From IMG/VR virus record IMGVR_UViG_3300008113_000189, positions 1 through 33,517 of that record: a DNA stretch of 33,517 nucleotides; one strand, given 5' to 3'. The DNA comes from a virus. Of this stretch, positions 2,091 to 22,598 are shown piece by piece (the first letter of the stretch is position 1; every line of letters starts with the position of its first letter). Made by a program: the position numbers and the translations under genes. Under the pieces are notes generated by a model that saw only the letters and a list, made by a program, of their open reading frames with translations, was not told the DNA's origin and searched no databases.

Positions 2091-3200
2091 TTAAAGCTCC
2101 GCAGCTGCTGCATAACGAACCCACGCATCGGCATAATAAAAAGAGCCATTGTTGATGGTGTTGAACCCTCTGAAAGCACCGGAAGATATGCTTGTTGTCC
2201 CAACGGCGCTTGTGGAGTTATCAATATTAGAGATGTATGTCATAGCAACAGTTGGCGTTGTTCTTTTGCTTACTTTGAACATAGCCAAATAATGAGTTGT
2301 GCCTTGTGCCAAACCCGAGCTTGATATCTTCGGGCTTCCGCTCGCCGGGATATCATCAACTTCATAATAGCGTTGACACATAGCCAATTCTTGATTGTAA
2401 AGACGCCGCTCAAATGGTGTAGCGACTGAGCCAATTTCAAGTTGGACGCCTGTGACATACCATGTTGCGCCGTTAGTTCCGACAACAGCTTGCGTTCCAG
2501 TAGCGCCATAATAGGCGGCGGAGGCCCATGTATTAGCTGTACCTTTGTAGTTGGAACCACTACCCATGTCGCAGATAAGGTAAAGCCCAACTCCAGTTGT
2601 CGTAAGCCATGTGCCGGTCACATCGCCGGGAATTGTAATTGTCTTGTATTCCCATGTATTCGCGGCGCTGATTGTATATGCGAATGGGTACGAACGCGAA
2701 GCAGCACTGCTTGCGACTGAAGCCCCAAATGAACCCGTGAGGCTTGATCGGACCCAAAAAGACACAGTGATTGTTTTTGCACCTGCCGTCCCAAAAGCAA
2801 TATCGGGGACATTTAACCCTTCTACTGCTTGAATGATGGCATAAGTTTCTGACGCTCCCGCAGTCGTCGCGGCAAGAGAAGTGACACCAAAATAGTTCTT
2901 AAATCCTGTCGGCGGCGTTACGCTGCCTGCATTTTGTTGCACAGAGAATTTTGATGCTTGGGCAGATTGAGCAAACCACCTATCAAGCGTGTAAGTGCTT
3001 GTGCTCGCACCAATCGTAACGCTCGCCCCACCATTGCGTTGATCAATCTCCATCGCCCCATTGATGATCTTATTCCGCATCGCATACGGCGAAGGCGGCA
3101 CCGGCATCTGCGCGAACGTGGCAGAGCCATCCGTGTTCAGCGCGATGTTGACTGAAGCAGAAGAGCCGTTTTGGATGTTAGAGGCTTTGATTGTGGACAT
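2091..3200 (-). CDS. Fibre protein with NKIINGAM / carbohydrate-binding-like fold (369 aa)
   Basis: The N-terminus MSTIKASNIQNGSSASVNIA is a short attachment-like segment found in many phage fibre proteins. It is followed by RNKIINGAMEIDQRNGGAS, LDRWF, FWVRSSLTGSFG, WEYKTITIPGDVTGTW and VQLEIGSVATPFERRLYNQE (last E about residue 270). The C-terminal 100 residues form a distinct tip with little similarity to the paralogue at 833-1909. It starts at the stop of the 185-aa gene (TAATG). Relative to that paralogue it has about 20 extra N-terminal residues, which could mark the part that docks on the virion. Host receptor binding is inferred. Confidence 0.85.
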   Translation of the reverse strand: MSTIKASNIQNGSSASVNIALNTDGSATFAQMPVPPSPYAMRNKIINGAMEIDQRNGGASVTIGASTSTYTLDRWFAQSAQASKFSVQQNAGSVTPPTGFKNYFGVTSLAATTAGASETYAIIQAVEGLNVPDIAFGTAGAKTITVSFWVRSSLTGSFGASVASSAASRSYPFAYTISAANTWEYKTITIPGDVTGTWLTTTGVGLYLICDMGSGSNYKGTANTWASAAYYGATGTQAVVGTNGATWYVTGVQLEIGSVATPFERRLYNQELAMCQRYYEVDDIPASGSPKISSSGLAQGTTHYLAMFKVSKRTTPTVAMTYISNIDNSTSAVGTTSISSGAFRGFNTINNGSFYYADAWVRYAAAAEL

Positions 3201-9274: not shown

Positions 9275-9439
9275 TTACTTCCCCTTCTTCATGCGAGCTG
9301 CGGCAGCGTTATCCACGAGATTGGGATAAGGTCTGCCAGCAACACGGGCGCGAGACTTCGCGGCCATTTTTTGCTTGCGGTCGAGATGCTTAGTCTTAGC
9401 ATCATCGGGTGCTTCAGTCTCCCAAAATGGCTTGCTCAT
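9275..9439 (-). CDS. Small basic protein (54 aa)
   Basis: ATG at 9439 overlaps the TGA of the DUF6321-like gene (ATGA), and TAA at 9275-9277 precedes the next ATG at 9273, so the frame fills the gap exactly. The product starts MSKPFWETEAPDDAKTKHLD, continues with RKQKMAAKSRARVAGRPYPN and ends in ARMKKGK. It is strongly basic after residue 14, with no membrane segment. Small proteins with a K-x-RA-x-AGRPYPNLVDN-type segment occur in other phage head clusters, but no function is known. A role in binding DNA or the capsid interior is conceivable from charge. It is short enough to be skipped by most gene callers. Confidence 0.75.
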   Translation of the reverse strand: MSKPFWETEAPDDAKTKHLDRKQKMAAKSRARVAGRPYPNLVDNAAAARMKKGK

Positions 9440-9708
9440 CAGCAATCCCACTTCCTAAGAGACTTATTAATTCGACTGTCAGGATCATTCTTCGTCTTCG
9501 CGCCGGTAAGCTGCTTTTTCATACCCTCCATCCGCGAACAGAATGAGCGACGACGCGCAGCGTCCATTTCGCTATTTTGTGCCTGTTCGCGACTAACAGG
9601 AGGCTTGAGATTATGACCCTGCGATTTAGCAGAAGCGCGGCCTTTAGCGTTGAGCCCGCCCTCAGGGTTCTTACCTTCAGAACGTGTCCAAGCCGGTGTT
9701 TTGGCCAT
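9439..9708 (-). CDS. DUF6321-like small phage protein (89 aa)
   Basis: The sequence has MAKTPAWTRSEGKNPEGGLN, then AKGRASAKSQGHNLKPPV, and ends with RRRSFCSRMEGMKKQLTGAK, NDPDSRINKSLRKWDC. I recognise this as the family annotated DUF6321, which recurs in phage structural regions. Its conserved pattern is PAW-x-R-x-EGKNP-x-GGLN-x-KGR and RKSFC-x-RM-x-GMKK. It is small and very basic with two cysteines near the C-terminal end, and its function is unknown. In this genome it lies among several small basic proteins between the capsid and adaptor genes. Its start follows AGGTGG. Confidence 0.85.
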   Translation of the reverse strand: MAKTPAWTRSEGKNPEGGLNAKGRASAKSQGHNLKPPVSREQAQNSEMDAARRRSFCSRMEGMKKQLTGAKTKNDPDSRINKSLRKWDC

Positions 9709-9754: not shown

Positions 9755-10033
9755 TCAGAGCGAACCGTCGACGGTGTGGCCCTTCGGGGGCGTGCCGTGA
9801 GCGGCAGACGACAGCGGGTTCATGTTCGAACCGGCGCGGCCACCCGACTTGCGGGGCTTGCGACCCGCATGCATCTTGGCCTTCATGCCTTCCGGCATAC
9901 CGACGTGCTTCTTGGCGGCTCCGCCCTTCTTCATGGCCTCAGCGGCGTTCATGATCTTAGGGGCAGAATTACGGCGTTCCGGCTTTGTGGCGGCGTCATT
10001 GACAACCGTACCACCAGTTTTACGACCCTTCAT
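9755..10033 (-). CDS. Small basic GG-motif protein (92 aa)
   Basis: The product is rich in Lys, Gly, Ala and Met: MKGRKTGGTVVNDAATKPER, AMKKGGAAKKHVGMPEGMK, GRKPRKSGGRAGSN. It carries three copies of a [KR]-x-GG motif that also recurs many times in the 504-aa protein and once at the C-terminus of the 774-aa protein. It is predicted to be disordered and highly positively charged. No domain is recognised. The start has GGAG seven bases upstream. A nucleic-acid or capsid-interior binding role is inference from charge and the shared motif. Confidence 0.75.
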   Translation of the reverse strand: MKGRKTGGTVVNDAATKPERRNSAPKIMNAAEAMKKGGAAKKHVGMPEGMKAKMHAGRKPRKSGGRAGSNMNPLSSAAHGTPPKGHTVDGSL

Positions 10034-10056
10034 AGCTATTCTCCATCAGAAGGATG

Positions 10057-10512
10057 TTACGCAGTCAGGTTACGAGCCTGAATGTAAGTTACGGTGATGA
10101 CACCGACACCAGAGCCAGTGTTGGCCGAGGTGACGAGGATCTGGCGATCTGTCGTGCCAACATCGTTCCAGTTACCAGCACGCGTTGCGTCCGTTCCCGG
10201 TGTCGCGGCAAGCGGACCGATTGCGGAAGCAGTGAGTGCAGCAGCAGCTGTGAAGAAGGTAGCCGAAGCAGTCGTACCAACACCAAACGTCGAAGCTGCG
10301 CCCGTCCATGCGGTCGTAACCATGACATCGATGCCGAGGATTTGGCTGTTAGCCGGGATCACGATGCTCGTCGAGCCGCTTGCTTGCGTAACCGGCGCGG
10401 ACTGAGCCATCACGACGAAACCAACGTTGGCGACGTCGTCACCGAGCGTCGTGCCGCTCGTGTTCAAAATATCACCAGCCTTAATAGGACCGGTAAAAGT
10501 GGTCGTACCCAT
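10057..10512 (-). CDS. Virion protein after the major capsid gene (151 aa)
   Basis: I choose ATG 10512 (MGTTTFTGPIKAGDILNTSG) because AGGAG lies six bases upstream; an in-frame ATG at 10527 would put that ribosome site inside the gene. The product is a Ala/Thr/Gly/Val-rich beta protein with NVGFVVMAQSAPVTQASGST, IVIPANSQILGIDVMVTTAW and ILVTSANTGSGVGVITVTY. Similar proteins follow capsid genes in many environmental phages and are called structural or decoration proteins. No enzymatic motif is present. It is separated from the capsid gene by about 110 nt containing several inverted repeats. Confidence 0.75.
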   Translation of the reverse strand: MGTTTFTGPIKAGDILNTSGTTLGDDVANVGFVVMAQSAPVTQASGSTSIVIPANSQILGIDVMVTTAWTGAASTFGVGTTASATFFTAAAALTASAIGPLAATPGTDATRAGNWNDVGTTDRQILVTSANTGSGVGVITVTYIQARNLTA

Positions 10513-10532
10513 CTGGGTCTCCTGCACGATAC

Positions 10533-10577
10533 GATTGCGTTGTCTGTGCAGTGTCCGCTAGGCCGGTCAACGCAATC
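10533..10577. repeat. 10-bp inverted repeat in capsid-downstream gap
   Basis: GATTGCGTTG (10533-10542) and CAACGCAATC (10568-10577) are perfect inverted copies 25 nt apart. They lie upstream of the ribosome site of the 151-aa gene and could form a stem in its leader. Confidence 0.6.
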
Positions 10578-10580
10578 TAT

Positions 10581-10592
10581 TCACCTAGGTGA
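10581..10592. repeat. 12-bp perfect palindrome TCACCTAGGTGA
   Basis: A complete 12-bp palindrome lies between the two other dyads of the gap after the capsid gene. It could be a protein-binding site or part of a cruciform; nothing else supports either. Confidence 0.5.
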
Positions 10593-10594
10593 CA

Positions 10595-10616
10595 GGGTGG
10601 GGGATTAACCCCACCC
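10595..10616 (-). terminator. Hairpin directly after the major capsid gene
   Basis: GGGTGGGG and CCCCACCC form a perfect 8-bp GC-rich stem with a 6-nt loop (GATTAA), starting eight bases beyond the capsid stop codon. No U-run follows on the minus strand. It may be an attenuator or a 3'-end protector that sets capsid mRNA apart, rather than a strong intrinsic terminator. Confidence 0.5.
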
Positions 10617-10623
10617 CAGAGTA

Positions 10624-11535
10624 TTAGGTCGGGAACGAACCGAAGATCGAACGCCAGTTGTAGTAACCGAACGAATAACGCTCGTAGCCCTTGACGAGGA
10701 GGTTGTCAGTGACGAAATCGACTTGCATGTCGGTTTCGAACTTGATGCGCTCCATGTACGACAGGCCGTCGATGTTCGTCAGGAGGAACCATGCGGAAGG
10801 CGAGGTCAAGAAGTCGTTGACCATGTAGCTTTCCGGCAAGCCGCCCGCCGTCATCATGATGGCGTTGACGTCGTTGTCTGCCGTGCCCGGACGGAGTTCC
10901 GTCTTCGTCAGACGGATGGCAACCGGTTCGAGCTGCGGAGGAACGATCAGCTTACGACCGCGAGCGAACACCTTCAGACCTGCTTGGTCCTTGAAATTCG
11001 TACGGATGGCGATCATTGCGTTCAGCAAGGTCGCTTCGTTAAGCTCAACGTCGACCAGCGGACGGTTAGCAACAGTGCCGCCATCGATCGGGTGGTCGGT
11101 GGCAATAAGCGCCTTGCCGTCACCGCCGATGGACGCATTGTACGTCGTCGCCGTGTTCAGAATGTTGGCACCATAAATTTCCTTCGTCTGCTGGAAGGAT
11201 TCGATGAGGCCAAGGTTTGACGGATGGAACTGCGTCTTATAGAGGTTATCATCGATCGCCTTGCGGGTGATCGCGTAACCCAGAGCAATTTCAGTGTGCT
11301 CTTGGTTATAGACGTAGCGTTCGCCAGCGTTGTTATCGAATGCGGTCTGGCCGCCTTCGGTCTTGAGCTGAGCGAGGCCGAGGTAACGCATTTCAGCGGT
11401 ACGCTCGAGCGCCATCTTCGAGTCATGCTTCGTGAAGATCTTGTCGTACTGCGACGGGATCTGTTCGTATTTGCCTTCAACACCACGGAGTCCGGGGAGG
11501 AGAAGGTCTTTAATGGCGGAAAGATTAACAGCCAT
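10624..11535 (-). CDS. Major capsid protein (303 aa)
   Basis: Recognised from MAVNLSAIKDLLLPGLRGVE, KMALERTAEMRYLGLAQLK, GYAITRKAIDDNLY, IATDHPIDGG, GLKVFARGRKLIVPPQLEPV and a C-terminal FVTDNLLVKGYERYSFGYYN. This layout matches HK97-fold major capsid proteins of the Mu gpT-like/podovirus type, with a helical E-loop region, a TDHP segment and an RKLIVPP core strand. About 300 residues with no N-terminal delta domain fits use of a separate scaffold, which is encoded upstream at 12845-13771. The ribosome site GAGGAG is strong, and hairpins flank the gene with the decoration gene, consistent with high expression. Confidence 0.93.
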   Translation of the reverse strand: MAVNLSAIKDLLLPGLRGVEGKYEQIPSQYDKIFTKHDSKMALERTAEMRYLGLAQLKTEGGQTAFDNNAGERYVYNQEHTEIALGYAITRKAIDDNLYKTQFHPSNLGLIESFQQTKEIYGANILNTATTYNASIGGDGKALIATDHPIDGGTVANRPLVDVELNEATLLNAMIAIRTNFKDQAGLKVFARGRKLIVPPQLEPVAIRLTKTELRPGTADNDVNAIMMTAGGLPESYMVNDFLTSPSAWFLLTNIDGLSYMERIKFETDMQVDFVTDNLLVKGYERYSFGYYNWRSIFGSFPT

Positions 11536-11550
11536 GGGTCCCTACTCCTC

Positions 11551-12129
11551 TTAGATACCGGTGAGCTGCTTCGTGGAAACGTTATTAAACGCCACGACAG
11601 CATAGTTATACGCACCAGAGTCCGTGCCGTTCGATCCGGGAGGTGCCGAAACGAGCGAAACAACGCGGAACGGGAGCGTGTTGGTGGTGTTGAGAGTCGA
11701 GGTATCGAGGTAAGCACCCGAGATACCCGTGGCCGAATTGCTCGTGCCGATGGCAAAGCCAATGTTGGCATTGATGTCAGCGAAGGCCACGCCGGTTGCG
11801 TCGGACTGAGCGACGAACTTAGCGTTCTGATCGTTCACGACGTAAGCTTCAACGTTGCCGTTAGCATCCGAACCAGGCCAATAGTTCGACCAGACGGTGC
11901 GCTTCTGCGACGTGGAAAGGTATTTGCAGCCAACGAAGATACCGGCAATCTGCACCGAGTTCGACGAAGCCTGAGCGATGTAGCCAGTGTTCAGCGGAAC
12001 AACCGGGTCACCGAAGTAAATTGCAGTCGTGTTATTCGAGGCAATGGTCATCGCGACCTGTTCGTAGGTCGGAGCGGAACCCGTGCCCGAATACTGACGA
12101 AAACCGAAAGGCGCGTTCGTGTTCGCCAT
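11551..12129 (-). CDS. Head decoration / stabilisation-like protein (192 aa)
   Basis: The product starts MANTNAPFGFRQYSGTGSAP and continues TYEQVAMTIASNNTTAIYFG, DPVVPLNTGYIAQA, IAGIFVGCKYLSTSQKRTVW, SNYWPGS and AYVVNDQNAKFVAQSD. N-APFGFR openings with a GDPV segment and a later beta barrel are typical of proteins encoded just before the capsid gene in many podovirus-like phages; they are usually called structural or decoration proteins. It is the first gene after a candidate promoter and a 5' hairpin, with AAGGAG eight bases upstream. Capsid attachment is inferred. Confidence 0.8.
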   Translation of the reverse strand: MANTNAPFGFRQYSGTGSAPTYEQVAMTIASNNTTAIYFGDPVVPLNTGYIAQASSNSVQIAGIFVGCKYLSTSQKRTVWSNYWPGSDANGNVEAYVVNDQNAKFVAQSDATGVAFADINANIGFAIGTSNSATGISGAYLDTSTLNTTNTLPFRVVSLVSAPPGSNGTDSGAYNYAVVAFNNVSTKQLTGI

Positions 12130-12198
12130 GACGGGTTCTCCTTATCGGGAGGTCTATCATCGCACACCGGGGCGACTTAAGAACCGGGATCAAGTTAA

Positions 12199-12218
12199 GC
12201 TTCCACACCGGGGGAAGC
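12199..12218 (-). other. Hairpin at predicted 5' end of capsid mRNA
   Basis: GCTTCC (12199-12204) and GGAAGC (12213-12218) form a 6-bp stem with an 8-nt loop. The transcription start expected from the promoter boxes at 12225-12253 is near 12218, so the message could begin with this hairpin. Such 5' stems protect phage and bacterial mRNAs from decay. Confidence 0.5.
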
Positions 12219-12224
12219 ATTATC

Positions 12225-12253
12225 AGAGTAACAGAATCTAGAATATGTGTCAA
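12225..12253 (-). promoter_or_regulatory. Candidate promoter for decoration and capsid genes
   Basis: On the minus strand a perfect TTGACA (12253-12248) is followed by 17 nt and TACTCT (12230-12225). A TG-n extension precedes the -10 box. The -10 itself matches only three of six positions. It lies in the largest gap of the late arm (175 nt) and points at the two genes that need the highest expression. Confidence 0.55.
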
Positions 12254-12270
12254 TAATTCAAATACATTTT

Positions 12271-12294
12271 GGCCGGTGAGTCTCCCCACCGGCC
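12271..12294 (-). terminator. 8-bp hairpin after the 175-aa gene
   Basis: GGCCGGTG (12271-12278) and CACCGGCC (12287-12294) are perfect inverted copies with an 8-nt loop, eleven bases past the stop codon of the 175-aa gene and just upstream of the capsid promoter. On the minus strand it is followed by AAAA and not by U residues, so intrinsic termination is uncertain. Confidence 0.45.
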
Positions 12295-12304
12295 ATTAGA
12301 AGGA

Positions 12305-12832
12305 TTACTCTTTCGGGATCGGCATCGCCTCGTATGCCTTTTTGATCTTCGGCGCAACGCGAGGATCGTCGCGGGTCATCGTACCATCCGGGGTACCCGC
12401 AATTTGCGCTTCTTTGGCGCGAACTTGGCCAATAGCGCGACGACGCTCGATTTCGCGGGCTTCGTCGACCAGCTCTCTCGGGCGCTCCATGAGGATCATG
12501 CCCTTACGTTCGATATGAACGTAATTTCCACCACTCGGCATCATTTCCGGGTGACGCGATGCAGGTACCGGCTCCCACCCCATGCGGGTAAGAGCGACCA
12601 TGTGAGACGGTTCTTCCGCACCGAGAGTAAGCTTGCGCTTCCACTCGTAGGACCAACCGGGTGGCGGTTCGGGCGCGGCGAATTCGTCTACGCCGTCATC
12701 CATGCTGCCGAGATGCCCACGGATCTCTGCAGCGCGGCGAGCGGCGCGATCGCGGGGATCCTCTTCCTTCGCCGTTACCGGGCGAGGATCGGGGCGAGTA
12801 GTCTGCTTGTTAGCGATGATTTTCGAGTCCAT
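12305..12832 (-). CDS. Conserved phage protein of the scaffold-capsid region (175 aa)
   Basis: The charged N-terminus (residues 1-45) looks disordered. The middle has FAAPEPPPGWSYEWKRKLTL, MVALTRMGWEPVPASRHPEM, then IERKGMILMERPRELVDEAR and a C-terminal helix rich in Arg, Glu and Ala. I recognise the PPPGW-SYEWKRK, GWEPVPASRHPEM and GMILMERP pattern from a conserved family located beside capsid genes. No biochemical function is known. It follows the scaffold gene by 12 bases and precedes a hairpin and the capsid promoter, so it is the last gene of its sub-block. A role in head assembly is inferred. Confidence 0.8.
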   Translation of the reverse strand: MDSKIIANKQTTRPDPRPVTAKEEDPRDRAARRAAEIRGHLGSMDDGVDEFAAPEPPPGWSYEWKRKLTLGAEEPSHMVALTRMGWEPVPASRHPEMMPSGGNYVHIERKGMILMERPRELVDEAREIERRRAIGQVRAKEAQIAGTPDGTMTRDDPRVAPKIKKAYEAMPIPKE

Positions 12833-12844
12833 TGGAACACCTTA

Positions 12845-13771
12845 TTAGTGAGGCAATTTGCCTTCTTTGATCAGTTGCGCCTTGTTCTTGGCATATTCCT
12901 GATCAGTCATACCCATCATTTGCGCCATTTCGCGTTCTGCCGACGTCAAACGAACAACGTTCTGACGAACGCCGTTGTTGTTGGTCGGGTTACGAGATAC
13001 TGGAGCGGCGGGAGGAGCGCTTCTACGCTGCGTTGGAGCCGAAGCGGAGGACAGAGAGCTTTCGTCCTGTTCACGAACGGGTGTTCTCTGGGATTGCTTG
13101 GACACTTTGAGAACATCTTCGACATACTCAAAGTATTCGTCGGTATCCGCAGCATAACCGTCGGCAATCGCCATATTGTGTGCGGCGACCATCTTCTGGT
13201 TAAGGCGCGGGTCGGTGACGAATTGAGGATTCTTGCGAACCCAATCGGCGGACCGAGGAGATAGCTGAGAGGCCAGAGACTCCACCGGATCGTCCGGGAT
13301 ATCGTAAGTAGGGCGCGGACGAGCCTCAAGAGCCATCTTTCCATTTTCAAGCTGCATCAATTTCGCAGCGTTGCTGGACATCGCTTCTTGAATATCTGCC
13401 ACGGAGTCGTAGTCATTAGCCGCCAGAGCCGCCTTGTAACGCTCTTTGAGCATCTGCGTGTCATTCTTCACCGTGTTAATAGCGGTGTCGAGTAATTGCA
13501 GATTGGTGTCGTGAACGTCTCCGGAGGCTTGAGTGGCCTTCTTTGTCGCCTCACGAGCACGCTTCTCGGCGTCAGCACGTGCTTGACGTTCGCGTTCAAG
13601 TTGTTCCTTGAGTTCGCGAATACTGTCGTCGACGTTGTCTTCCGCCTGAGCGCCCGAATCGGCTTTTACGACCTCTTCGGCGGGTTCGATCTTTACGATC
13701 TCTTCCTCGACGACGGATGCCTTCTCGTCGATTTCGATCTCTACGGTGTCTTGATCTTGAGATTTAGCCAT
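12845..13771 (-). CDS. Capsid scaffold-like protein (308 aa)
   Basis: The N-terminal 55 residues are strongly acidic. Residues about 50-82 form a coiled coil (IRELKEQLERERQARADAEK). The centre has QLLDTAINTVKNDTQMLKER, AANDYDSVADIQEAMSSNAA and PVESLASQLSPRSADWVRKN followed by DPRLNQKMVAAHNMAIADGY. The C-terminal part is Ser/Arg/Pro-rich with a final basic helical element (TSAEREMAQMMGMTDQEYAK). Acidic, coiled-coil proteins with a basic C-terminus encoded a few genes before the capsid gene are typical scaffolds, and the capsid protein here lacks its own delta domain. The assignment is from composition, pattern and position; no catalytic protease triad is visible. Confidence 0.7.
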   Translation of the reverse strand: MAKSQDQDTVEIEIDEKASVVEEEIVKIEPAEEVVKADSGAQAEDNVDDSIRELKEQLERERQARADAEKRAREATKKATQASGDVHDTNLQLLDTAINTVKNDTQMLKERYKAALAANDYDSVADIQEAMSSNAAKLMQLENGKMALEARPRPTYDIPDDPVESLASQLSPRSADWVRKNPQFVTDPRLNQKMVAAHNMAIADGYAADTDEYFEYVEDVLKVSKQSQRTPVREQDESSLSSASAPTQRRSAPPAAPVSRNPTNNNGVRQNVVRLTSAEREMAQMMGMTDQEYAKNKAQLIKEGKLPH

Positions 13772-13783
13772 GTCTTCGGATCC

Positions 13784-14176
13784 TTACCACACGCGATCGG
13801 GATGATCGATACGACCGCGAATATTAACATCATCAAGGATGCGGCAAAGAACATTGTTGACAGTAATGCTCCAGCCATCAGATGGCCTAAACACGACCCA
13901 ATCCTTGTCGCGAATAGTGTAGCCACGGAACCAACGTCCTTCGGGGTCATGGAAAGCATCCTCTCCCATCTTCAGCACCAAGCCGACCTTCGACTGATAA
14001 CGGTCTTCGTCGACCGTCTTGTCAGCCAAGTAGATACCGCTCTTGGTCTTCTGTGGGCGGATATAGACCGCAACTAGGAGCTGATTGTTGAATATTTCGA
14101 CCTTAGAAAGGTCACCCATCTCTTCCAGAAGCTTCTGCTTCGGATCGATGTCATGCTGCATTATCATTGGCGGCAT
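13784..14176 (-). CDS. GroES-like co-chaperonin (130 aa)
   Basis: From residue 31 the sequence follows the Cpn10 fold: NQLLVAVYIRPQKTKSGIYL with ADKTVDEDRYQSK (the strand and mobile-loop region), GLVLKMGEDAF, RDKDWVVFRPSDGWSITVNN and CRILDDVNIRGRI. Bacterial GroES is about 97 aa and T4 gp31 111 aa; this one is longer because of an N-terminal extension and an insert near residues 74-88. Its place next to the scaffold and three genes from the capsid suggests that it helps host GroEL fold the capsid protein, as T4 gp31 does. It starts after AGAGGGA. A non-chaperone structural use of the fold is possible. Confidence 0.75.
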   Translation of the reverse strand: MPPMIMQHDIDPKQKLLEEMGDLSKVEIFNNQLLVAVYIRPQKTKSGIYLADKTVDEDRYQSKVGLVLKMGEDAFHDPEGRWFRGYTIRDKDWVVFRPSDGWSITVNNVLCRILDDVNIRGRIDHPDRVW

Positions 14177-14191
14177 GCTATTTCCCTCTTT

Positions 14192-14398
14192 TTAGCGGTT
14201 GCGCTGATCCGCGTAGTCTTTAGCTAGCGGAACCAGTTCTTCCATTACTGACCGAAGAGCGGCGATGCGTCCCATGACGTATCTAAATTCGCCGACGGTC
14301 TCGTAATTGTTTATTTCGAGTTGCCCTCTGAGGTCATTGATCGTCTCCTCAATCAATTTGCCCAGCTCTCGTTCGAACAGTGCTGCGTTCGTTAACAT
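14192..14398 (-). CDS. Small helical protein (68 aa)
   Basis: The product MLTNAALFERELGKLIEETI continues NDLRGQLEINNYETVGEFRY and VMGRIAALRSVMEELVPLAK. It looks entirely alpha-helical, with a probable coiled coil, and about one quarter of its residues are charged. Small helical proteins of this type lie beside portal or scaffold genes in related phages without a known role. A purine-rich AGAGGG lies just upstream of the start. It is separated from the preceding 504-aa gene by a 12-bp hairpin. Confidence 0.75.
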   Translation of the reverse strand: MLTNAALFERELGKLIEETINDLRGQLEINNYETVGEFRYVMGRIAALRSVMEELVPLAKDYADQRNR

Positions 14399-14427
14399 TC
14401 ACCCTCTCTACCCTCTTGTTGAAAGGA

Positions 14428-14460
14428 AGTGGAGTGCCGAAGAGGGTACGGCACTCCACT
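14428..14460 (-). terminator. 12-bp hairpin after the 504-aa gene
   Basis: AGTGGAGTGCCG (14428-14439) and CGGCACTCCACT (14449-14460) pair perfectly around a 9-nt loop. In the minus direction the stem is followed by TCCTTTC, a poor U-tract. This is one of the strongest hairpins in the window and probably partly terminates transcription from the packaging/portal genes. Confidence 0.6.
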
Positions 14461-14490
14461 CGTCATCTGAGCTATTCGGGAGGAGACGGC

Positions 14491-16005
14491 TCAGCGACCC
14501 CGCTTGCTGCGCTGAATCTCCGTCTTTTCGAGACGGCCCTCTCCTGACCCTGCGCCAGCATCCATGTCCTTGTAGGAACGATAGACACCACCACCTGCTT
14601 TGCGAGCAGTACGACCACCTGTGGCACCCGGCACCTTGTTCGGGTAGCCGACGCCATCGAACACATTTTTACCGTCTTCGCGGGGCTTTGGCAAGCGCTT
14701 CGCGATATCGGTCTTCTGCAGACGGCCTTCGCCCGAACCGGCACCAGCTTCCATGTCCTTATAGGACTTGGCGATTTTGGTCACGCGACCACCGGTCTTG
14801 CGAGCCATCATCGAGGGTGGCGGCATCGACGGACCACCGGGACCAGCGCCCGGAGGCATGCCCATCGGAGGAGCACCTGCGCCAGCGAGGCCCGGAGGCA
14901 TAGAGCCCGGAGCGGGAGCCGGGACCGGCATCACCGGAGGACGAGCCATCGGCGGCATACCGGGATTCGGCATACCCATCGGAGTCTCGGTGCTGTCTTT
15001 CTTGCCCGTATTGACCACGATGTTGATATTCGTCTTACCCTTGGCGCGGCCACCGTCTTTGCGAGCCATGCGCTTGGTGGTCGAACCACCTTCGCACTTC
15101 TCCAAAGCCGACTTCTTCACCATCTTCTTGATGAGGGCCTTGTCCATGGCTTCGTCGCCATGCTTAGCCGCACCACCCTTTTGCATTACTTGGGTGCCGT
15201 ACTCTTTGCGGATCTCATCGAAGGACTTGTCCTTGATTTTGCCACCCTTCTTGTACGGCGTGCCTTGAGCACCGGCAAACTTCATGCGGGTCGGAGACAC
15301 CATACCAAGACGGGCGTCAGGACGATCGGATACCATCGGGCCACCGTCCATCTTGCCGACGCGGCCACCCTTCTTATAACCCCGCTCCAGACGCTTCATC
15401 TGCCCAGCGTCGTAGAAGTCGCGCGGCTGCGCTTTGCGACCATCGTACATGAGTTCGGCGTCTTTCAGAGTCGATTCACCACGACCCTTCTCGATGCCTT
15501 GAATCATCTGCATGAGCTTCTGGCGATCGGAATTTGAGTAGAATGGGGTCTCGGTGCGACCACCGTCCTGACGCTTGGTGCGACCACCGTGCTTCTTCTC
15601 GTCCTTGTCGCCCTTCATCATATTGTAAGCCATAGCAGCTGGGCTCACGATGCTGAGAGCGTCGAGTGCGCCACCACCTTTTTTGGCTACGCCACCCTTC
15701 TTCATACCACCAACGTGCTTGACGCCTTCACGCTCTTCGTTAGCGTCCTTGACGTTGCGGTTCACCTTGGCGTTAGCATAGGCGCGAGGAGCCTTGTCAG
15801 CGCGGGCGGCATTAGCCTCGCCGGTCACTTTGCCGCCTGACTTAAAAGCCCGACGAGACACCGGACGCATGCCGGTCTTAACGTCGGCGTTAAGAGGCTC
15901 CGGTGGGGTCCATGTCGACGAATCGACTTTCTTCTGCGGGTCTGCAACAAGGCGTTCAGCCTTGCTTTTAAGCGCCTTGCGGGCGGATTTGGCCATTTCT
16001 GACAT
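14491..16005 (-). CDS. GGR/GGK-repeat basic protein (504 aa)
   Basis: I use ATG 16005 (MSEMAKSARKALKS) with AGGAG six bases upstream; a TTG one codon earlier is not needed. The protein is very basic and low in complexity. A motif [KR]-x-GG-[RKAV] occurs about a dozen times (for example FKSGGKV, KKGGVAKK, YKKGGRV, YKKGGKI, ARKDGGRA, ARKTGGRV). Residues about 337-400 are a Pro/Met/Gly tract. A duplicated unit SYKDM[ED]AGAGSGEGRL is at about 414-429 and 477-492. No enzyme domain is seen. It follows the portal-linked gene. It could be an internal, DNA-contacting virion protein (RGG-box-like composition) or a scaffold-interacting linker; this is inference. Confidence 0.75.
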   Translation of the reverse strand: MSEMAKSARKALKSKAERLVADPQKKVDSSTWTPPEPLNADVKTGMRPVSRRAFKSGGKVTGEANAARADKAPRAYANAKVNRNVKDANEEREGVKHVGGMKKGGVAKKGGGALDALSIVSPAAMAYNMMKGDKDEKKHGGRTKRQDGGRTETPFYSNSDRQKLMQMIQGIEKGRGESTLKDAELMYDGRKAQPRDFYDAGQMKRLERGYKKGGRVGKMDGGPMVSDRPDARLGMVSPTRMKFAGAQGTPYKKGGKIKDKSFDEIRKEYGTQVMQKGGAAKHGDEAMDKALIKKMVKKSALEKCEGGSTTKRMARKDGGRAKGKTNINIVVNTGKKDSTETPMGMPNPGMPPMARPPVMPVPAPAPGSMPPGLAGAGAPPMGMPPGAGPGGPSMPPPSMMARKTGGRVTKIAKSYKDMEAGAGSGEGRLQKTDIAKRLPKPREDGKNVFDGVGYPNKVPGATGGRTARKAGGGVYRSYKDMDAGAGSGEGRLEKTEIQRSKRGR

Positions 16006-16046
16006 CAAAATCTCCTAGGAGTGGTCCGGGCGTCCCCGGTGGCTGA

Positions 16047-18371
16047 TCAACCAGTTTTAGAGGATAACATGAGCGCTTTATTCACGATAGATTCAGAATG
16101 CGCACCGACTTTACCGCCACGCTTGAATCGCGGCAGACCCTTGGCGATCGCTTCGCGCATCTTGGGCGTGATTTCGACTTCGAAGAAGGTGATAGGCTTC
16201 GTGAGATTATAATATTTATCGTTGTTAGCTTCGATCTCGTACTCGATCTCGGCCAATTGGTATTCAAGCTCATTATATTTCTCGCTACCGAATTCTTCGA
16301 AGCTCATCTGATCTTCGACATCGCGTTTAGCGGTGTTTAGCTCCTCGCCTCTCTGAAGCGTGTTTTCAACTTCGAAGTCTTCGTTGATGTCTCGCTCTAC
16401 CTTGCGCTTGGTAATTTTAGCGTCGGGGTCGAGCTTTTTGACTTGCTTCTCAAGCTGCGATTTGATGGTGGTATCGTAGAACTTGGCGACACCTTCAGCG
16501 TCTTCGGAACCCGCCCAACGAGCGGCTTGCACGTCGCCAGCCGATACTTGAAGCTTACCGTATTCCGGGTTGTCTGCAGCTTCCTTGAGAACACGCTTCA
16601 ACGCCAGAGCGGCCCAATCCTTGGTGTCTTCAACGTAGCGTTCGCGGGGATGGGCAAGATTCTGATTGTCGACCACTCTTGCTCTATTGCGAGCAGTATC
16701 GAGTTCAGATTCGGCTTGAGCGTAGTTATTATAAGCGGCTTTGTAGTCAGGGTGATCAATATCGCCTTGAAGCCTACTATATGTGTTTTCAAGGTCGGCT
16801 TCGGCTAGACTGAACTTTTGTGCAGCCATTTCACGTTCAACTACCAACGCTTGCTTTTCGTCCTCAGTCAAACGCCACCCACGCTGACGGCCACCTTGCG
16901 CCCAATCAGACTGGATCTCTTCGACGCGCAGAATCTTGCTGTTAGACCTCGGATCCGAAAAGTCCTGCATACGAATGTGCGCTGCAGTATTCGTGTAATC
17001 GCGGAAGTGACCACTAACATAATTAGGGTTGGGACTGTTCGGATCGTAGACCTTGTTCGAATAGACTTCGGCATTATTAAGACTATCCAAAGCCTTATCG
17101 ACTACATTGTCGCCAAACGACGCGCGGGCTTCCGGCGTAGAGAACTTTTCAATCATATCCCAAACCTTAGCCGCAGCCTCAGCTTCGGAGTTGAACTGAC
17201 GTTCACCTAACAAAAGCCAATTCATATCTGGCAATCGAATACCATACTCCACTTTGGGCTGATACTCTTTTTCGGGTGTCCGCAACAACACTTCGCGGTA
17301 ATTCGTGCCACCCGGTGTCGATGCTTCCGGATAAGTATCTGGGCCATAAAAAGGCTTATTATACCCTTCAGCGAACGATTCGCCCCAAGAATACTTAGCG
17401 CCAGCTTCCGAACCACCCATATTCAGACGAAAAGCAGCACTTGATGCTTCTTCGGCGGTCGGATAAGACCCGACGACCTCTCCAGTCTTAAAATCGGTAA
17501 CGGTGAAGGATCTACCCTTGTCGCCGCCCAGAATGGTCTCAGTGATTTGTGGGAAATCGCCCTCATTGATCATCTTGGCGAATTCCGGGCCGGTCAGCTT
17601 ACCCCTTTCGAGGAACTCCGGAGTAGCGTTGCCCTTGGCGTCGGTGATTCCGGCGGCCATAAGCTCTTCGTTGCGGATGCCCGACTTGCCTTTGAGCCAG
17701 TTGAGAGCCTGTTGTGCGGGCATCGTCTGGGGCATCGCGGCAGCGGTATCGGCTGCATGGCTATATAGACCCAGCGGAGTGAGTTCACGAGTATATGCGA
17801 GGGCCTTCTCGACTGCCGGTGCGGTCTTTTCAGCGACTCCTGCAGCCTTGGCGGGCATCGTCGCCATCGCCAAAGTGCCGAATTTACCAGCAGCCGCCAT
17901 CGGATCGGCAAAAATGCTACCCAGAATACCCGCAGAAGTGGCTCCGATGCTCGGATCTTGGCTCAGAGTACCCTTCTGCTTGGCTCTCTCCTCAAGATAG
18001 GCACTTCCACCCGGCAGAGACATTTCTTCGTGGCTCGGAATGCGCCCTTTGAGTACCTCGCGAGCCCCTCCAAGGAGGCCGACGATATCCATCGGCGTTC
18101 CGTAGATACCCGACGCTGCAATTGCTGCGGCGTCTTGGACGCCTTGAGACGTCGGACGAACGGTTTCCCAGACATTCTGCATTTGCTCCGGGTAGCTCAT
18201 CGTCGATGGTTGAACCGGCGCGGCTTGCCCGAATTGCGCTGAATACGCGTCGAGGGGCTGAAGTGCCGGTTGCTGGGGCTCTTGCGGTTTCGGAGCCGGA
18301 ACGAACTCGCGTCCCTCCGATTCCGCAAGCATCTGGAGGGCGCTTTTGACGATTTCCGGATCCTGAGCCAT
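16047..18371 (-). CDS. Portal-linked large protein with EEIQSDWA domain (774 aa)
   Basis: ATG 18371 overlaps the portal stop (TGATG) and follows GAGGAG. Residues 1-60 are Pro/Gln-rich. Residues about 80-190 contain Ala/Gly-rich hydrophobic helices. From about 196, TPLGLYSHAADTAAAMPQ, LGG, GGTNYREVLL (354-363), VSGHFRD, LRVEEIQSDWA (481-491), KDWAALALKRVLKEAA (584-599), GDVQAARWAG and ITPKMREAIAKGLPRFKRGG (734-752) follow in the order I know from very large phage and prophage proteins that hold this domain beside LPD/PLxRFG modules. Here it is compact and stands alone. A coiled coil lies at about 505-560. Position suggests an internal or ejected virion protein; no catalytic activity can be assigned. 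Confidence 0.75.
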   Translation of the reverse strand: MAQDPEIVKSALQMLAESEGREFVPAPKPQEPQQPALQPLDAYSAQFGQAAPVQPSTMSYPEQMQNVWETVRPTSQGVQDAAAIAASGIYGTPMDIVGLLGGAREVLKGRIPSHEEMSLPGGSAYLEERAKQKGTLSQDPSIGATSAGILGSIFADPMAAAGKFGTLAMATMPAKAAGVAEKTAPAVEKALAYTRELTPLGLYSHAADTAAAMPQTMPAQQALNWLKGKSGIRNEELMAAGITDAKGNATPEFLERGKLTGPEFAKMINEGDFPQITETILGGDKGRSFTVTDFKTGEVVGSYPTAEEASSAAFRLNMGGSEAGAKYSWGESFAEGYNKPFYGPDTYPEASTPGGTNYREVLLRTPEKEYQPKVEYGIRLPDMNWLLLGERQFNSEAEAAAKVWDMIEKFSTPEARASFGDNVVDKALDSLNNAEVYSNKVYDPNSPNPNYVSGHFRDYTNTAAHIRMQDFSDPRSNSKILRVEEIQSDWAQGGRQRGWRLTEDEKQALVVEREMAAQKFSLAEADLENTYSRLQGDIDHPDYKAAYNNYAQAESELDTARNRARVVDNQNLAHPRERYVEDTKDWAALALKRVLKEAADNPEYGKLQVSAGDVQAARWAGSEDAEGVAKFYDTTIKSQLEKQVKKLDPDAKITKRKVERDINEDFEVENTLQRGEELNTAKRDVEDQMSFEEFGSEKYNELEYQLAEIEYEIEANNDKYYNLTKPITFFEVEITPKMREAIAKGLPRFKRGGKVGAHSESIVNKALMLSSKTG

Positions 18372-20674
18372 CAACCCGGCTCCTCAAGCTTCCGCACGAA
18401 ATCCGGGTTGATAAGTGGTGCGGCTACCGCCAGACCTTCTGGATTGGTAATCGTGTCTTGGATGATCTTCGCCATGGCCACGCGTTCGCGGCTCTCACGA
18501 TCCTGAGCACGATTGTCGGCGTCGAGCTTGACGTCTGCGGCCTTGACTTCGAGTTCCTTGGACTTAAGATCCATTTCCTGCATCTTAAGCTGCGAGTCCA
18601 TCTGAGCTTTGGCCAAACCCTCCGGGTCGCCACCTTCGGGCTGGGCCATCTTCTGGATCTTGGCTTGCGCTTCGGCGACCTTCACATCGGCCAGCTTGGA
18701 CTTGGTGTCGGCGTCCTGCTTCTTGATCTGAATGGTGGCCATCTTCTCTTGCAGTTCCGGCGGTGGCTTGCCCTGCGCTTCCGGCGGTGCCATGAACTGC
18801 TGCGGATTGCTCCAACCGATAGCTTGGATCGCGGCGATATCGATCGCAATAGGATCGTACATGCCGGGGTTCTGCGCTTGCAGCTGCTTGAGCGCGATGA
18901 CTTTCATGAGGCGCTGCATCTGGCTAGCGGTATTCGGATCCGCTTGCGGCACGAGGTCGTAGTCCTCCACCGCTTGCATGAACGTCTTCTCGTCCCACGG
19001 ATAGGCGGGGCGACGATTGCGCTGCCAGAACGAATCGGGGTGCTCTTTGAAGCAATCGAGCAGCATATCGAGTTCTTCGGACTGCGCCGAGTGCAGACGC
19101 TTGTGGACCGAATTGAGAAGCTTCTGGGCTTGCTCGATCATGGCGAGCGTCGTGCCGACCGGCGCATCAGCGCGGCCTTCGGCCACCTGCATCTCCGCCG
19201 TGCCGCCGACCCTCTGGCCGGTCTCGACCATGTTGTTGACGAGGTTCATCAACGCGCCCGACGGCTCTTTGTAGGGCAGCGGCATGATGGCTTGGCTGAT
19301 AGGCATACCGCCGGTCTTGACCAGCGCTCCACCGCCCGGAGGAACACGGAAGATGTTCGTATTCTGCCGCGCACCCGTGTCGGCCATGAGGAAGCCGGGG
19401 AAGTTATTATACATACCGGCGTCGAGAAGCTCGCGCCATGCGGCAGTGACAGCGTTCGTCGTGTTGCCGAGGATGTGCAAGAGCCCGATGTCATAGAAGC
19501 CCATGCCGGGGACGAACGTGTACTTCACGAATGCCTTGCGGGGTTCGGGCAGATCCTTCTGGTCCTCGTCGTAGTTACGAACGATCGACAGAATGCGCTT
19601 GGACGAGACGTCGAGTGTCACGCGATACGGAATTTCGAGGCCGGTCAGCTTGCCCTTGTGCTTATGCTCGAAGCCCGCAATGTCGAGTTCGCAGTAGCAC
19701 TCGTAGATCTCGCGGTCGCGATCATCCGGGTTGTACGAATCGGGCGAGATGCCTTGCTGGCTGAGCTGCTCGCGCTGCACGGAATCGAGCTGCGGCGCTG
19801 CCGGTGTGGACAGGTCGATATCGGCGTAGACGCCAAGGATCTGCATGCGCTTCACGGTCGAAGGCTTCATGTAGATCCGGTGGGTGATGCGCTTGGCGTT
19901 GCTGAGATCCGTCGCCGAATTGTTGACGATCAGATCATCCGCGTCGACCGATTCAGATACCGGGCGGTTGCGCAGCGGGCAGAAGTACACTTTCTTGAAG
20001 CTCGTGCCACCGAAGCCCAGCATGAAGAGCATGCGATCGGTGTCGGGGTAATATTCCTTGGCGGTGGCCGTGAGGTAGTGATTCATGTCGACTTCGAGAG
20101 CGTCGGCCAGACGGTCATCGAGCGTCGTCGAATTATTGTTGTCGTTGCGTACCTTGGTCGGGCCGTCGGCGGGCAACAGTTCGCCACGAGCGTTGGCTTG
20201 GAACCGCAACACTGCTTCAAGCAAGAGCGGGTGCCGGACCTTCGACATACCTTCTACCGGCGCACCATCGGATGCACCGGCAAGGCCCGGAATTTCGATC
20301 TTGAGGCCAAGCAGCTTGATGCCCTGAGCGCGATCCTCGATCCACTCCTTGCGGGAGTCGATGTCGTCTTGGATGCCGCGCATCAGATCCATGGCGATGC
20401 GGTTAAGTTCCAGCTGATCGATGTCGTCGACCAAATTGCGGAACCAATTGCTGCGATCCTTCTCGCTCCGCTCGGCCTCTTGCACCGGCTTGCCGTCGAG
20501 CGAAATCGTGATCGAACCGTCCGGGTGCTCAATGCTCAGAATGTTGCCGTTATCGTCGACGTCGGGCTTGTCTTGGCCTTCGTCGAATTCGATAGACACG
20601 TCTTCCAGATCAGGCTTAGGAGCCTCGTCCTCGACTAACCGCAAATTGGGAACTAGTCCGGGCGTCAAAGCCAT
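18371..20674 (-). CDS. Portal protein (767 aa)
   Basis: I use ATG 20674 (MALTPGLVPNLRLVEDEAPK), which has AAGGA upstream and lies just past the stop of the 88-aa gene; an open frame continues to 20779 but without support. An acidic N-terminus is followed by DDIDSRKEWIEDRAQGIKLL, KVRHPLLLEAVLRFQANARG and ELLPADGP. Next come YYPDTDRMLFMLGFGGTSFK, CPLRNRPVSESVDADDLIVN, then FVPGMGFYDIGLLHILGNTT and TLAMIEQAQKLLNSVHKRLH. The C-terminal 130 residues are a charged coiled coil. These features match large podovirus portal proteins, which form the dodecameric DNA gate at the head vertex. It is next to the terminase genes, as usual. Confidence 0.88.
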   Translation of the reverse strand: MALTPGLVPNLRLVEDEAPKPDLEDVSIEFDEGQDKPDVDDNGNILSIEHPDGSITISLDGKPVQEAERSEKDRSNWFRNLVDDIDQLELNRIAMDLMRGIQDDIDSRKEWIEDRAQGIKLLGLKIEIPGLAGASDGAPVEGMSKVRHPLLLEAVLRFQANARGELLPADGPTKVRNDNNNSTTLDDRLADALEVDMNHYLTATAKEYYPDTDRMLFMLGFGGTSFKKVYFCPLRNRPVSESVDADDLIVNNSATDLSNAKRITHRIYMKPSTVKRMQILGVYADIDLSTPAAPQLDSVQREQLSQQGISPDSYNPDDRDREIYECYCELDIAGFEHKHKGKLTGLEIPYRVTLDVSSKRILSIVRNYDEDQKDLPEPRKAFVKYTFVPGMGFYDIGLLHILGNTTNAVTAAWRELLDAGMYNNFPGFLMADTGARQNTNIFRVPPGGGALVKTGGMPISQAIMPLPYKEPSGALMNLVNNMVETGQRVGGTAEMQVAEGRADAPVGTTLAMIEQAQKLLNSVHKRLHSAQSEELDMLLDCFKEHPDSFWQRNRRPAYPWDEKTFMQAVEDYDLVPQADPNTASQMQRLMKVIALKQLQAQNPGMYDPIAIDIAAIQAIGWSNPQQFMAPPEAQGKPPPELQEKMATIQIKKQDADTKSKLADVKVAEAQAKIQKMAQPEGGDPEGLAKAQMDSQLKMQEMDLKSKELEVKAADVKLDADNRAQDRESRERVAMAKIIQDTITNPEGLAVAAPLINPDFVRKLEEPG

Positions 20675-20675
20675 A

Positions 20676-20942
20676 TTAGCTGTCCTTAGGTTGCGATTCG
20701 ATCTCGGCAACGAAACGGTCGATGCCCTGCCTCGCTGCGACGTCTTCGCTCTTAGCCTGAATCTGATAAATACGGGCAAAGTCGTGAGGCGGCTTGCCCC
20801 ACACTTCTACTTGGAATAACCCTAAGCCATTCTGAGTGGCGGGTCGAACCTCGTCGACCACAGCTTGGGCCAGAACCACGAGACTGCCCTTCGGAAATAT
20901 TGCGCGCTCGGTGATTGTAATGCAACACCGCCCGGAAGTCAA
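20676..20942 (-). CDS. Small protein between terminase and portal (88 aa), start uncertain
   Basis: The frame contains CCITITERAIFPKGSLVVLA, VDEVRPATQNGLGLFQVEVW, GKPPHDFARIYQIQAKSEDV and ends ESQPKDS. The pattern recurs in phages between the terminase and portal genes. There is no ATG in the frame: TTG at 20942 directly abuts the terminase stop, while GTG at 20879 follows AAGGG. A strong promoter-like sequence (20914-20942) overlaps the first codons of the longer form. The longer form is more likely if CCITITE is conserved in relatives. The function is unknown; a short beta-rich fold is suggested by the alternating hydrophobic residues. Confidence 0.65.
   Translation of the reverse strand: MTSGRCCITITERAIFPKGSLVVLAQAVVDEVRPATQNGLGLFQVEVWGKPPHDFARIYQIQAKSEDVAARQGIDRFVAEIESQPKDS
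20914..20942 (-). promoter_or_regulatory. Candidate promoter before portal genes
   Basis: On the minus strand TTGACT (20942-20937), 17 nt, then TACAAT (20919-20914) match the sigma70 boxes at five of six positions each. The first box begins at the TTG codon proposed as start of the 88-aa gene. It would drive the portal and following genes separately from the terminase. Confidence 0.55.
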
Positions 20943-22598
20943 TCAGATCGGATACAAAGGCGGCAGCGAACCACCGATCTTGCGCATGTCCTGCTCGGTC
21001 TCGTATTGGACCTCTTGACTGCGCTGCAGCAGCCCCGTGGTGCGGAGATACCGCATGGCTTGGCTGACGGTGTCGACCAAGTCGTCATGCTTGCCCTTAG
21101 GGAAGACTGTGCACTGGTCGATGACCATGTCGGCCCAGCCACGATCCGGCGCGAATATCAGGCCCTCGCTGAAGAGATGCTGCACCGAATAGAGCCGCGC
21201 CAGCTTGTCTTGGTTGCCGGTGTCCATGAGCTGCACCGCAAAATCGGCGTTCGAATAGATTCGCCGGATCTCCTGCGACACGCTTATACCGGCGGCCTTG
21301 TTTTCGATCAGCAGCTTGTCGATCTTGAATTGCTTGGCCGACCGGAGCACCCGCTCAATCAATTCGTGCAGTTCGTAGCGCCCCTGCCAAGCGTGGAGCA
21401 TGATCGCCTTGGGATGCTGCACCACATACGATCGCTCGATATGGTAGACGTTGCCATCGGCGCTCTGCATCTTGGTGGCTTGGGCTGTCACGTCCTGCGA
21501 GAAGATGCCCCAGATCGTCAAGGCGGACGGGTCGTTCTCCTGCTTGGCGGTGTAGGCGGTATCTAACGATGCGATCACATAGTCGAGTGGCGGGAATGCC
21601 TCGTGCTCCCATAGCTGCCACCATTCGCGCTTGATGACGCCACCACCGCGAGGCTGCGGCTCTTGCTGGAACTGACCGGCAGTGGCGTACGGTCCCATCA
21701 CCGCCTCGTCGCGGTCGACGACCTCCTTCGGGAATCGTGCCGGGAATAAGAGTTCGCCCTCCTCTTGGCGCGGGTCTTCATAACCAAGCTTGGTCGGCAT
21801 GGCCCGCATCGGGTCGTAGCGCATAGGCAGCATGATATGGTCGTAGCCAAGCTGCTTGTCCAAGATGACGCCCGACACATCCTCCTCGTGGAGGCGCTGC
21901 ATGATGACGATGATGGCCGACTTGATCGGATCGTTGAGGCGGGTCGGAATGGCTTCGAGGAAAGTGTCGATTTCCGATTGGCGCTGAGTATCGGACATCG
22001 CCGAATCCACCGAGTGCGGATCGTCGATGATCACCCGGTCGCCACGAAGGCCGGTGAGCGAAGTGATGGCGGTAGCGATACGGAAGCCGGACGCGTTGTT
22101 CGTGAAGTTCATCTTCTCGTTCTGGTCACGAGACAGCGACACCCGATCGCCCCACCGCTTCTGGTACCAGTCGGAGGTCACGAGCTGCCGCATACGCCGC
22201 GAATCGCGAGCAGACAGGTTCTCGACCTTGTGCGCCGCACAAATGTAGCGCAGGTGCGGCATGTTGCGTGGCCCCCATTCCCAAGCGGGCCAGAACACGT
22301 TGGTGAGCAGCGACTTCATCGTGCCCGGTGGAATGTTGATGAGCAGACGATTGTAATACTCGTCGTCGATCACGGTCTCGTCGGTGATGGCTTCGAGGTG
22401 CTTGGCGATGAAATCGACATGCCACCCGTGGACGTAAGGCTGACCGGGCTCGATGACATGCCACGCTTGCCGGACGAATTCGACGAGCGATTCCTCTGCG
22501 TCTGCCTTGTCGATTTCGAACACAGCCTCGTTGATATCGATCTTCTCGATGTCCTCGTCGCTGAAGACTCCGATTTTGCGCAGAAGAGCGGCGCTCAT
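20943..22598 (-). CDS. terL: Terminase large subunit (551 aa)
   Basis: The ATPase/nuclease motor that packages DNA into the head. The ATPase domain shows LLINIPPGTMKS (residues 85-96, Walker A region), RVIIDDPH (188-195, Walker B) and SAIIVIMQRLHEEDVSG (227-243, coupling motif). The RNase H-like nuclease begins at ASLDTAYTAKQENDPSALTI (343-362, with D346), continues with DKLLIENKAAG, and has its last acidic site in FPKGKHDDLVDTVSQAMRYL. Length is typical. The start overlaps the small subunit stop by four bases (ATGA). The nuclease and ATPase motifs look intact. The Walker A form (PPGTMKS) is the one usual for this group. Confidence 0.95.
   Translation of the reverse strand: MSAALLRKIGVFSDEDIEKIDINEAVFEIDKADAEESLVEFVRQAWHVIEPGQPYVHGWHVDFIAKHLEAITDETVIDDEYYNRLLINIPPGTMKSLLTNVFWPAWEWGPRNMPHLRYICAAHKVENLSARDSRRMRQLVTSDWYQKRWGDRVSLSRDQNEKMNFTNNASGFRIATAITSLTGLRGDRVIIDDPHSVDSAMSDTQRQSEIDTFLEAIPTRLNDPIKSAIIVIMQRLHEEDVSGVILDKQLGYDHIMLPMRYDPMRAMPTKLGYEDPRQEEGELLFPARFPKEVVDRDEAVMGPYATAGQFQQEPQPRGGGVIKREWWQLWEHEAFPPLDYVIASLDTAYTAKQENDPSALTIWGIFSQDVTAQATKMQSADGNVYHIERSYVVQHPKAIMLHAWQGRYELHELIERVLRSAKQFKIDKLLIENKAAGISVSQEIRRIYSNADFAVQLMDTGNQDKLARLYSVQHLFSEGLIFAPDRGWADMVIDQCTVFPKGKHDDLVDTVSQAMRYLRTTGLLQRSQEVQYETEQDMRKIGGSLPPLYPI

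Follow-up and report, generated by a model that had tools for sequence, protein, structure and literature searches.

What a short motif shared by separate genes of one phage operon might do is the question raised by IMGVR_UViG_3300008113_000189, a 33.5-kb virus record of 33,517 nucleotides that we analyzed whole and refer to as the window. Three of its late genes, encoding proteins of 504, 92 and 774 amino acids (aa), had initially been annotated with a repeated basic double-glycine (GG) motif, [KR]xGG[RK]. Across the window and its relatives, the core common to these genes is instead an aromatic residue and a valine or isoleucine at fixed distances from the GG, and in variable proteins encoded next to the portal gene this core stands before a short helix at the C-terminus. 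We propose, with belief and doubt about equally matched, that [FY]xxGGxV serves as hinge and recognition element in a short tag by which unrelated effectors are loaded into the phage head. Among the three roles put forward initially (a nucleic-acid contact like RGG boxes, a docking tag for the head interior and a double-glycine protease site) the docking tag fits best, because unrelated enzymes share a terminal tag that begins with the motif.

The double-glycine motif in the window and its relatives

All three genes lie on the minus strand where they had been placed (Table 1), while the copy numbers needed revision. Across the 48 window open reading frames (ORFs) tested, the strict motif [KR]xGG[RK] has 6 copies in the 504-aa protein, where about a dozen had been claimed, and a single one in the 92-aa protein, where three had been; a looser [KR]xGG gives 10 and 3. 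The 774-aa protein has, as announced, a single copy under either definition (KRGGK, within FKRGGKV). The looser motif exceeds composition-preserving shuffles in the 504-aa protein (10 against 2.2, with 0 of 2000 shuffles as high) and suggestively in the 92-aa protein (3 against 0.43, P = 0.006), and in the 774-aa protein alone it is not above shuffles (P = 0.37). That single copy becomes significant because relatives keep the GG (G752) in the same column, one of two conserved at 90% or above when 43 proteins encoded at the corresponding place, otherwise largely unrelated, are aligned. Occurrence in early proteins had been set beforehand as the observation that would tell against a shared virion motif, and the strict motif was found in 0 of the 45 other annotated ORFs, early arm included.

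Using the window portal as query, 80 loci were found at 63–98% identity. On contigs long enough, their gene order is largely conserved and runs from the portal through large variable ORFs (as a rule one to three), the GG-rich gene (504 aa in the window), a 68-aa-type gene and GroES to the scaffold. The variable ORFs between the portal and the GG-rich gene, whose bodies are swapped freely within this one slot, are referred to here as cargo. In these relatives the shared core sharpens to [FY]-x-x-G-G-x-[VI], as in FKSGGKV, YKKGGRV and FKRGGKV. The flanking residues had been described as otherwise unrelated; in the relatives there is a strong preference for an aromatic residue three positions before the GG and for V or I two positions after it. 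Compared with shuffles, [FY][KARDE]xGGx[VI] is over-represented about 60- to 100-fold in two places only, the cargo (146 observed, 2.4 expected) and the GG-rich protein (111 observed, 1.1 expected); motif counts include related sequences, and the ratios measure enrichment, not independent trials. No copies were found in the portal, terminase, scaffold, GroES and capsid proteins of the relatives. The other ORFs contain 13 copies: 11 in proteins that are short or unrecognised and apparently part of the same block, and 2 in minus-strand ORFs of one locus (L062) that look spurious. The strict motif [KR]xGG[KR] is concentrated in the GG-rich protein (599 against 35.6 expected), and in other ORFs its frequency matches chance (22 against 19.9).

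Basic residues were considered as the motif core and rejected. Lys and Arg do typify the copies of the GG-rich protein, as first noticed, but they are a local variant, and the cargo copies mostly read A-D-GG, A-S-GG and similar. The core that crosses genes is the aromatic and Val positions, and the fixed spacing of F/Y and V around the GG argues for recognition over a plain flexible linker. The proposal that virion-module genes share a short linear motif holds, and is strengthened by the restriction of the motif to the GG-rich protein, a small basic cousin (the 92-aa protein) and the variable portal-adjacent proteins.

The 504-aa protein is very basic (net charge +49, counted as K+R−D−E) and predicted to be disordered, with a mean predicted local distance difference test score (pLDDT) of 47.7. 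About 95 orthologous ORFs were found, some partial or duplicate; the complete ones carry net charges of +38 to +66, and their alignment (24% mean column identity) has few invariant columns, GG pairs among them. In orthologues of the 92-aa protein, encoded two genes past the capsid gene, two sites are retained, a basic RGGK and an RKSGG (mostly GRKPRKSGG). Given the charge, the disorder and the enrichment of K/R around the GG, the GG-rich and 92-aa proteins could be RGG-like, disordered and DNA- or RNA-binding, with the motif as part of the binding. RGG boxes likewise have basic residues beside GG in disordered protein. However, such a contact fits the basic copies of the GG-rich protein only, since most cargo copies of this core are neutral or acidic (A-D-GG, A-S-GG, A-Q-GG). 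The spacing, the Lys preference and the favoured aromatic and Val positions also differ from RGG boxes: most copies are Lys-x-Gly-Gly and lie mostly tens of residues apart, and clustered Arg-Gly-Gly was not found. We regard nucleic-acid contact as a very unlikely account of the motif.

At three loci (L105, L107 and L108), a 945-aa GG-rich protein is encoded directly after the portal with no intervening cargo gene. Distant isolates sharing the portal family have no GG-rich gene, and in these the motif is found, at modest enrichment, in small basic portal-side proteins or large virion-module proteins. One locus without a GG-rich gene, L094 (MW202545.1), encodes a 449-aa protein after the capsid gene (18808–20157) with five copies (YAKGGKV, YATGGAI, FAKGGKV, FATGGNV and FKKGGKV), and a 171-aa protein encoded near it (20962–21477) has FKKGGKV close to its C-terminus.

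A terminal tag on variable portal-adjacent proteins

The C-terminal tail of the cargo consists of GGxV, 0 to about 20 residues and then a short helix, [IV]xxALx[IL] (also written xxALxLxxK), as in KKKRGGSIVDRALMLTSKKA and FKKGGKVRSALMIAKGMKKR; the tail of the window's own protein is FKRGGKVGAHSESIVNKALMLSSKTG. Many cargo proteins also start with a similar helix. Cargo was clustered on the 200 residues adjoining the tail; clustering by any body similarity was dropped, as shared domains chained 58 into one cluster. Of the 29 clusters, which are unrelated to one another over those 200 residues, 62% have the tail pattern; the rate is 4.5% in internal segments, 4% in shuffles and less than 2% in structural genes. 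As a hold-out, the patterns were frozen and then applied to 59 new loci sharing only trivial DNA with the first set. The C-terminal tail was found in 11 of 17 held-out clusters (background 5.4%, structural genes 5/200; P = 1e-10) and the N-terminal helix in 3 of 16 (background 1.3%, P = 0.001). When 43 cargo proteins were aligned, GGxV and ALxL lined up unforced at a mean identity of 7%.

A DNA-pattern scan for one tail type over 2.9 million viral contigs returned 34 tail stretches, every one of them (34/34) within 36 residues of the C-terminus of an ORF. The GG-rich gene was directly next in 33 of the 34, and the remaining contig ends 78 bases later. The pattern required GG and several of the matches are near-identical, and what the scan tests is position and neighbourhood, not the frequency of GG before the helix. 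A stricter scan for the helix only gave 3 contigs, 1 of which was already known, and both new ones have an upstream GG and the GG-rich gene next.

Domains recognised in the cargo include ART-PolyVal (8 of 43 proteins) and LPD23 (3 of 43), along with transglycosylase (SLT), amidase, cell-wall hydrolase, M15 peptidase, pyrophosphatase, PcfJ, ASCH and metallopeptidase-like domains. The tagged cargo of the relatives is multidomain with catalogued effector domain types, as polyvalent proteins are, and polyvalent proteins encoded beside virion genes have been predicted to be packaged and injected (PMC5512222).

Two other tail classes were seen on cargo proteins. One, HPAxGIPGVHIxTAExGEPxFxG, also follows a GG (L055, 12522–14216; L063, 3235–6021; L079, 6062–7471). 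The other, xAxxHKALEIIHHLLTR, is on the product of the first cargo gene after the portal (L007, 12334–13827; L012, 4938–5990; L046, 6094–7800).

Head loading and competing explanations

If the tag does load effectors into the head, it would attach each of them to a partner inside the head, at the portal or close by, before the DNA is packaged. The GG-rich protein, predicted to be disordered, has many copies of the GG motif whose positions are fixed, and its gene nearly always lies beside a tagged one; it would be the likeliest organiser, and its copies may contact DNA or this same partner. The effectors would exit together with the DNA and take effect early in the infection. It is possible, though we lean towards doubting it, that this amounts to a previously undescribed head-loading code, in which a two-part tag ([FY]xxGGxV plus the ALxL helix) allows one phage lineage to swap arbitrary effectors into its virion with a disordered GG protein as organiser.

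Several points weigh against head loading. We infer the presence of the tagged proteins in virions from gene position and protein type. The frozen C-terminal pattern covers only about two thirds of the cargo clusters, the N-terminal one fewer, and the association of tail type with GG-rich lineage is not significant (Mantel-type test, rho 0.064, permutation standard deviation 0.054). Some phages (L023, L105) have the GG-rich gene without preceding cargo, and because of these the GG-rich protein has some further role. The codons of the tag are skewed in 30 distinct cargo genes, with CTT for the Leu of AL in 29 of 30 and TCT for the Ser after GG in 23 of 24, hinting at shared descent of the DNA. 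Lastly, the motif is also internal in cargo, about once per 1000 residues, between modules, which a purely terminal tag would not account for. Together with the lack of copies inside Pfam domains (0 of 24, 3.0 expected, P = 0.04), these internal copies suit either a proteolytic site or a modular joint.

With a proteolytic site, a maturation or host protease would cut the double glycine, freeing effector modules both from their terminal helices and from one another and reducing the GG-rich protein to basic peptides. Besides avoiding Pfam domains, the motif lies at module boundaries (after the folded body, between the body and a tag helix, and where one domain meets the next), and the fixed F/Y and V around the GG resemble a recognition sequence. 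The processing of polyvalent proteins has been attributed to metallopeptidases built into them (PMC5512222), and a metallopeptidase-like domain is present in some relatives; most cargo proteins, however, are without a recognised peptidase. No prohead-type protease family was recognised in the window, a record that may be incomplete, and the relatives' scaffold and capsid proteins, the usual prohead-protease substrates, hold 0 motifs, as does their portal. We consider cleavage at the GG unlikely.

The skewed codons also speak for a modular joint, in which tails and linkers are short homologous stretches for recombination between cargo genes, kept without binding any partner. Bodies are freely swapped, a domain placed terminally in one cargo protein lies inside another, where GG marks the seam, and the tail lies at most about 200 bases from the conserved start of the next gene, all of which a joint would accommodate. 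But the skew concerns two wobble positions, and the others vary while the residues stay constant. Like tags are also found at N-termini and on cargo away from the GG-rich gene (the HKALEIIHHLL class), and the repeated copies at conserved positions of the GG-rich protein are unexplained by any joint. We consider a modular joint distinctly unlikely.

The window's cargo protein and comparison with known systems

The late arm of the window, on the minus strand, encodes the small and large terminase, an SU10-type portal, the 774-aa, 504-aa GG-rich and 68-aa proteins, GroES-like, scaffold-like and Mu gpT-like capsid proteins, small proteins, an SU10-type adaptor and tail fibres. The features that matter here are collected in Table 1.

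Table 1. Positions of the cargo block, its motif copies and its flanking genes in the window
Feature	Position	Strand	Basis
Portal (SU10 type), upstream anchor of the cargo slot	18371..20779	-	PHROG 1216, Pfam SU10_portal
774-aa polyvalent-type cargo protein, folded body aa 204-745	16047..18371	-	AlphaFold2 pLDDT profile, domain common to relatives
N-terminal tag helix EIVKSALQMLAE, aa 6-17	18321..18356	-	Predicted helix 5-18; pattern recurs at relatives' N-termini
FKRGGKV, GG part of the putative C-terminal tag, aa 749-755	16107..16127	-	Directly after folded body; G752
C-terminal tag helix SIVNKALMLSSK, aa 761-772	16056..16091	-	Predicted helix 763-769; tail common to relatives
504-aa GG-rich protein, 6 strict motifs, about 15 GG blocks	14491..16005	-	Sequence, orthologues
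FKSGGKV, near-invariant first motif, after KTGMRPVSRRA	15826..15846	-	Orthologue alignment
YKKGGRV copy	15358..15378	-	Computed position
YKKGGKI copy	15235..15255	-	Computed position
RKDGGRA copy, before conserved KGKTNINI	15043..15063	-	Orthologue alignment
RKTGGRV copy, near C-terminal (M/D)xAGAGSGxGRLxK block	14782..14802	-	Orthologue alignment
68-aa protein, after the GG-rich gene in many relatives	14192..14398	-	Synteny
GroES-like protein, downstream anchor of the block	13784..14176	-	Library matches and synteny
92-aa basic protein with KTGGT, KKGGA, GRKPRKSGGR	9755..10033	-	Sequence; downstream of capsid gene

In the model of the 774-aa protein, the low-confidence ends hold short helices only, both tag helices among them. 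VIA-align matched the model mostly to helix-hairpins, plus GNAT folds, with the body weakly resembling AtaT, KacT and the ICL2 C-domain at Z about 9–10 over 118–147 residues, a middling score for this tool. Foldseek returned no match to the model below E 0.026, its GNAT-like matches being at E 0.3 and worse. On the head-loading reading, this protein would count among the effectors, perhaps as an acetyltransferase. Neither it nor the 504-aa and 92-aa proteins had a match in Pfam, PHROGs or NCBIfam, and the 504-aa and 774-aa proteins had none among PDB sequences.

Elsewhere in the window, a conserved small basic protein encoded beside the 92-aa gene (9439–9708) is DUF6321 (E 8e-21), and two neighbouring ORFs (833–1909 and 2091–3200) both match the tail-fibre family phrog_4492, likely a duplication. 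In a genome collection, 8 contigs matched, all inside metagenome bins of mixed phyla, and therefore the host cannot be named.

Few systems are known for how phages choose the proteins carried in their heads. If head loading by this tag is true, the tag alone would predict injected proteins (for counter-defence or host takeover) from sequence across a large uncultured phage group, and would provide an easy means of loading proteins of choice into phage heads. No description of the tag was found in the openly accessible literature, subscription papers being mostly outside the search.

The capsid targeting sequence of T4 is N-terminal, is carried by internal proteins and is removed by the prohead protease. 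It likewise is a short terminal sequence that brings unrelated proteins into the head before DNA packaging, as we propose here. Compared by description, the two differ in that the tag described here is mainly C-terminal and no such protease was recognised. Polyvalent proteins share the same domain types (ART-PolyVal, LPD23, PcfJ and peptidases) beside virion genes with the tagged cargo; a common terminal tag or GG-rich partner, as in the phages studied here, was not found described in a term search of PMC5512222. Encapsulins of family 1 likewise load cargo through a short C-terminal, sometimes N-terminal, peptide on unrelated enzymes encoded by adjacent genes (PMC8346489), and a short terminal peptide common to unrelated proteins is what was found here. 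The encapsulin shell has the HK97 fold (PMC8346489), and the window capsid gene is related to Mu gpT. The peptide itself differs, being TVGSL in one encapsulin system (PMC8346489) and GGxV with an ALxL helix here, and the putative loading system described here belongs to a phage whose operon also encodes the GG-rich protein with its many motif copies. By analogy, the tag would work most like the encapsulin loading peptides or the T4 capsid targeting sequence, and we assign it to neither.

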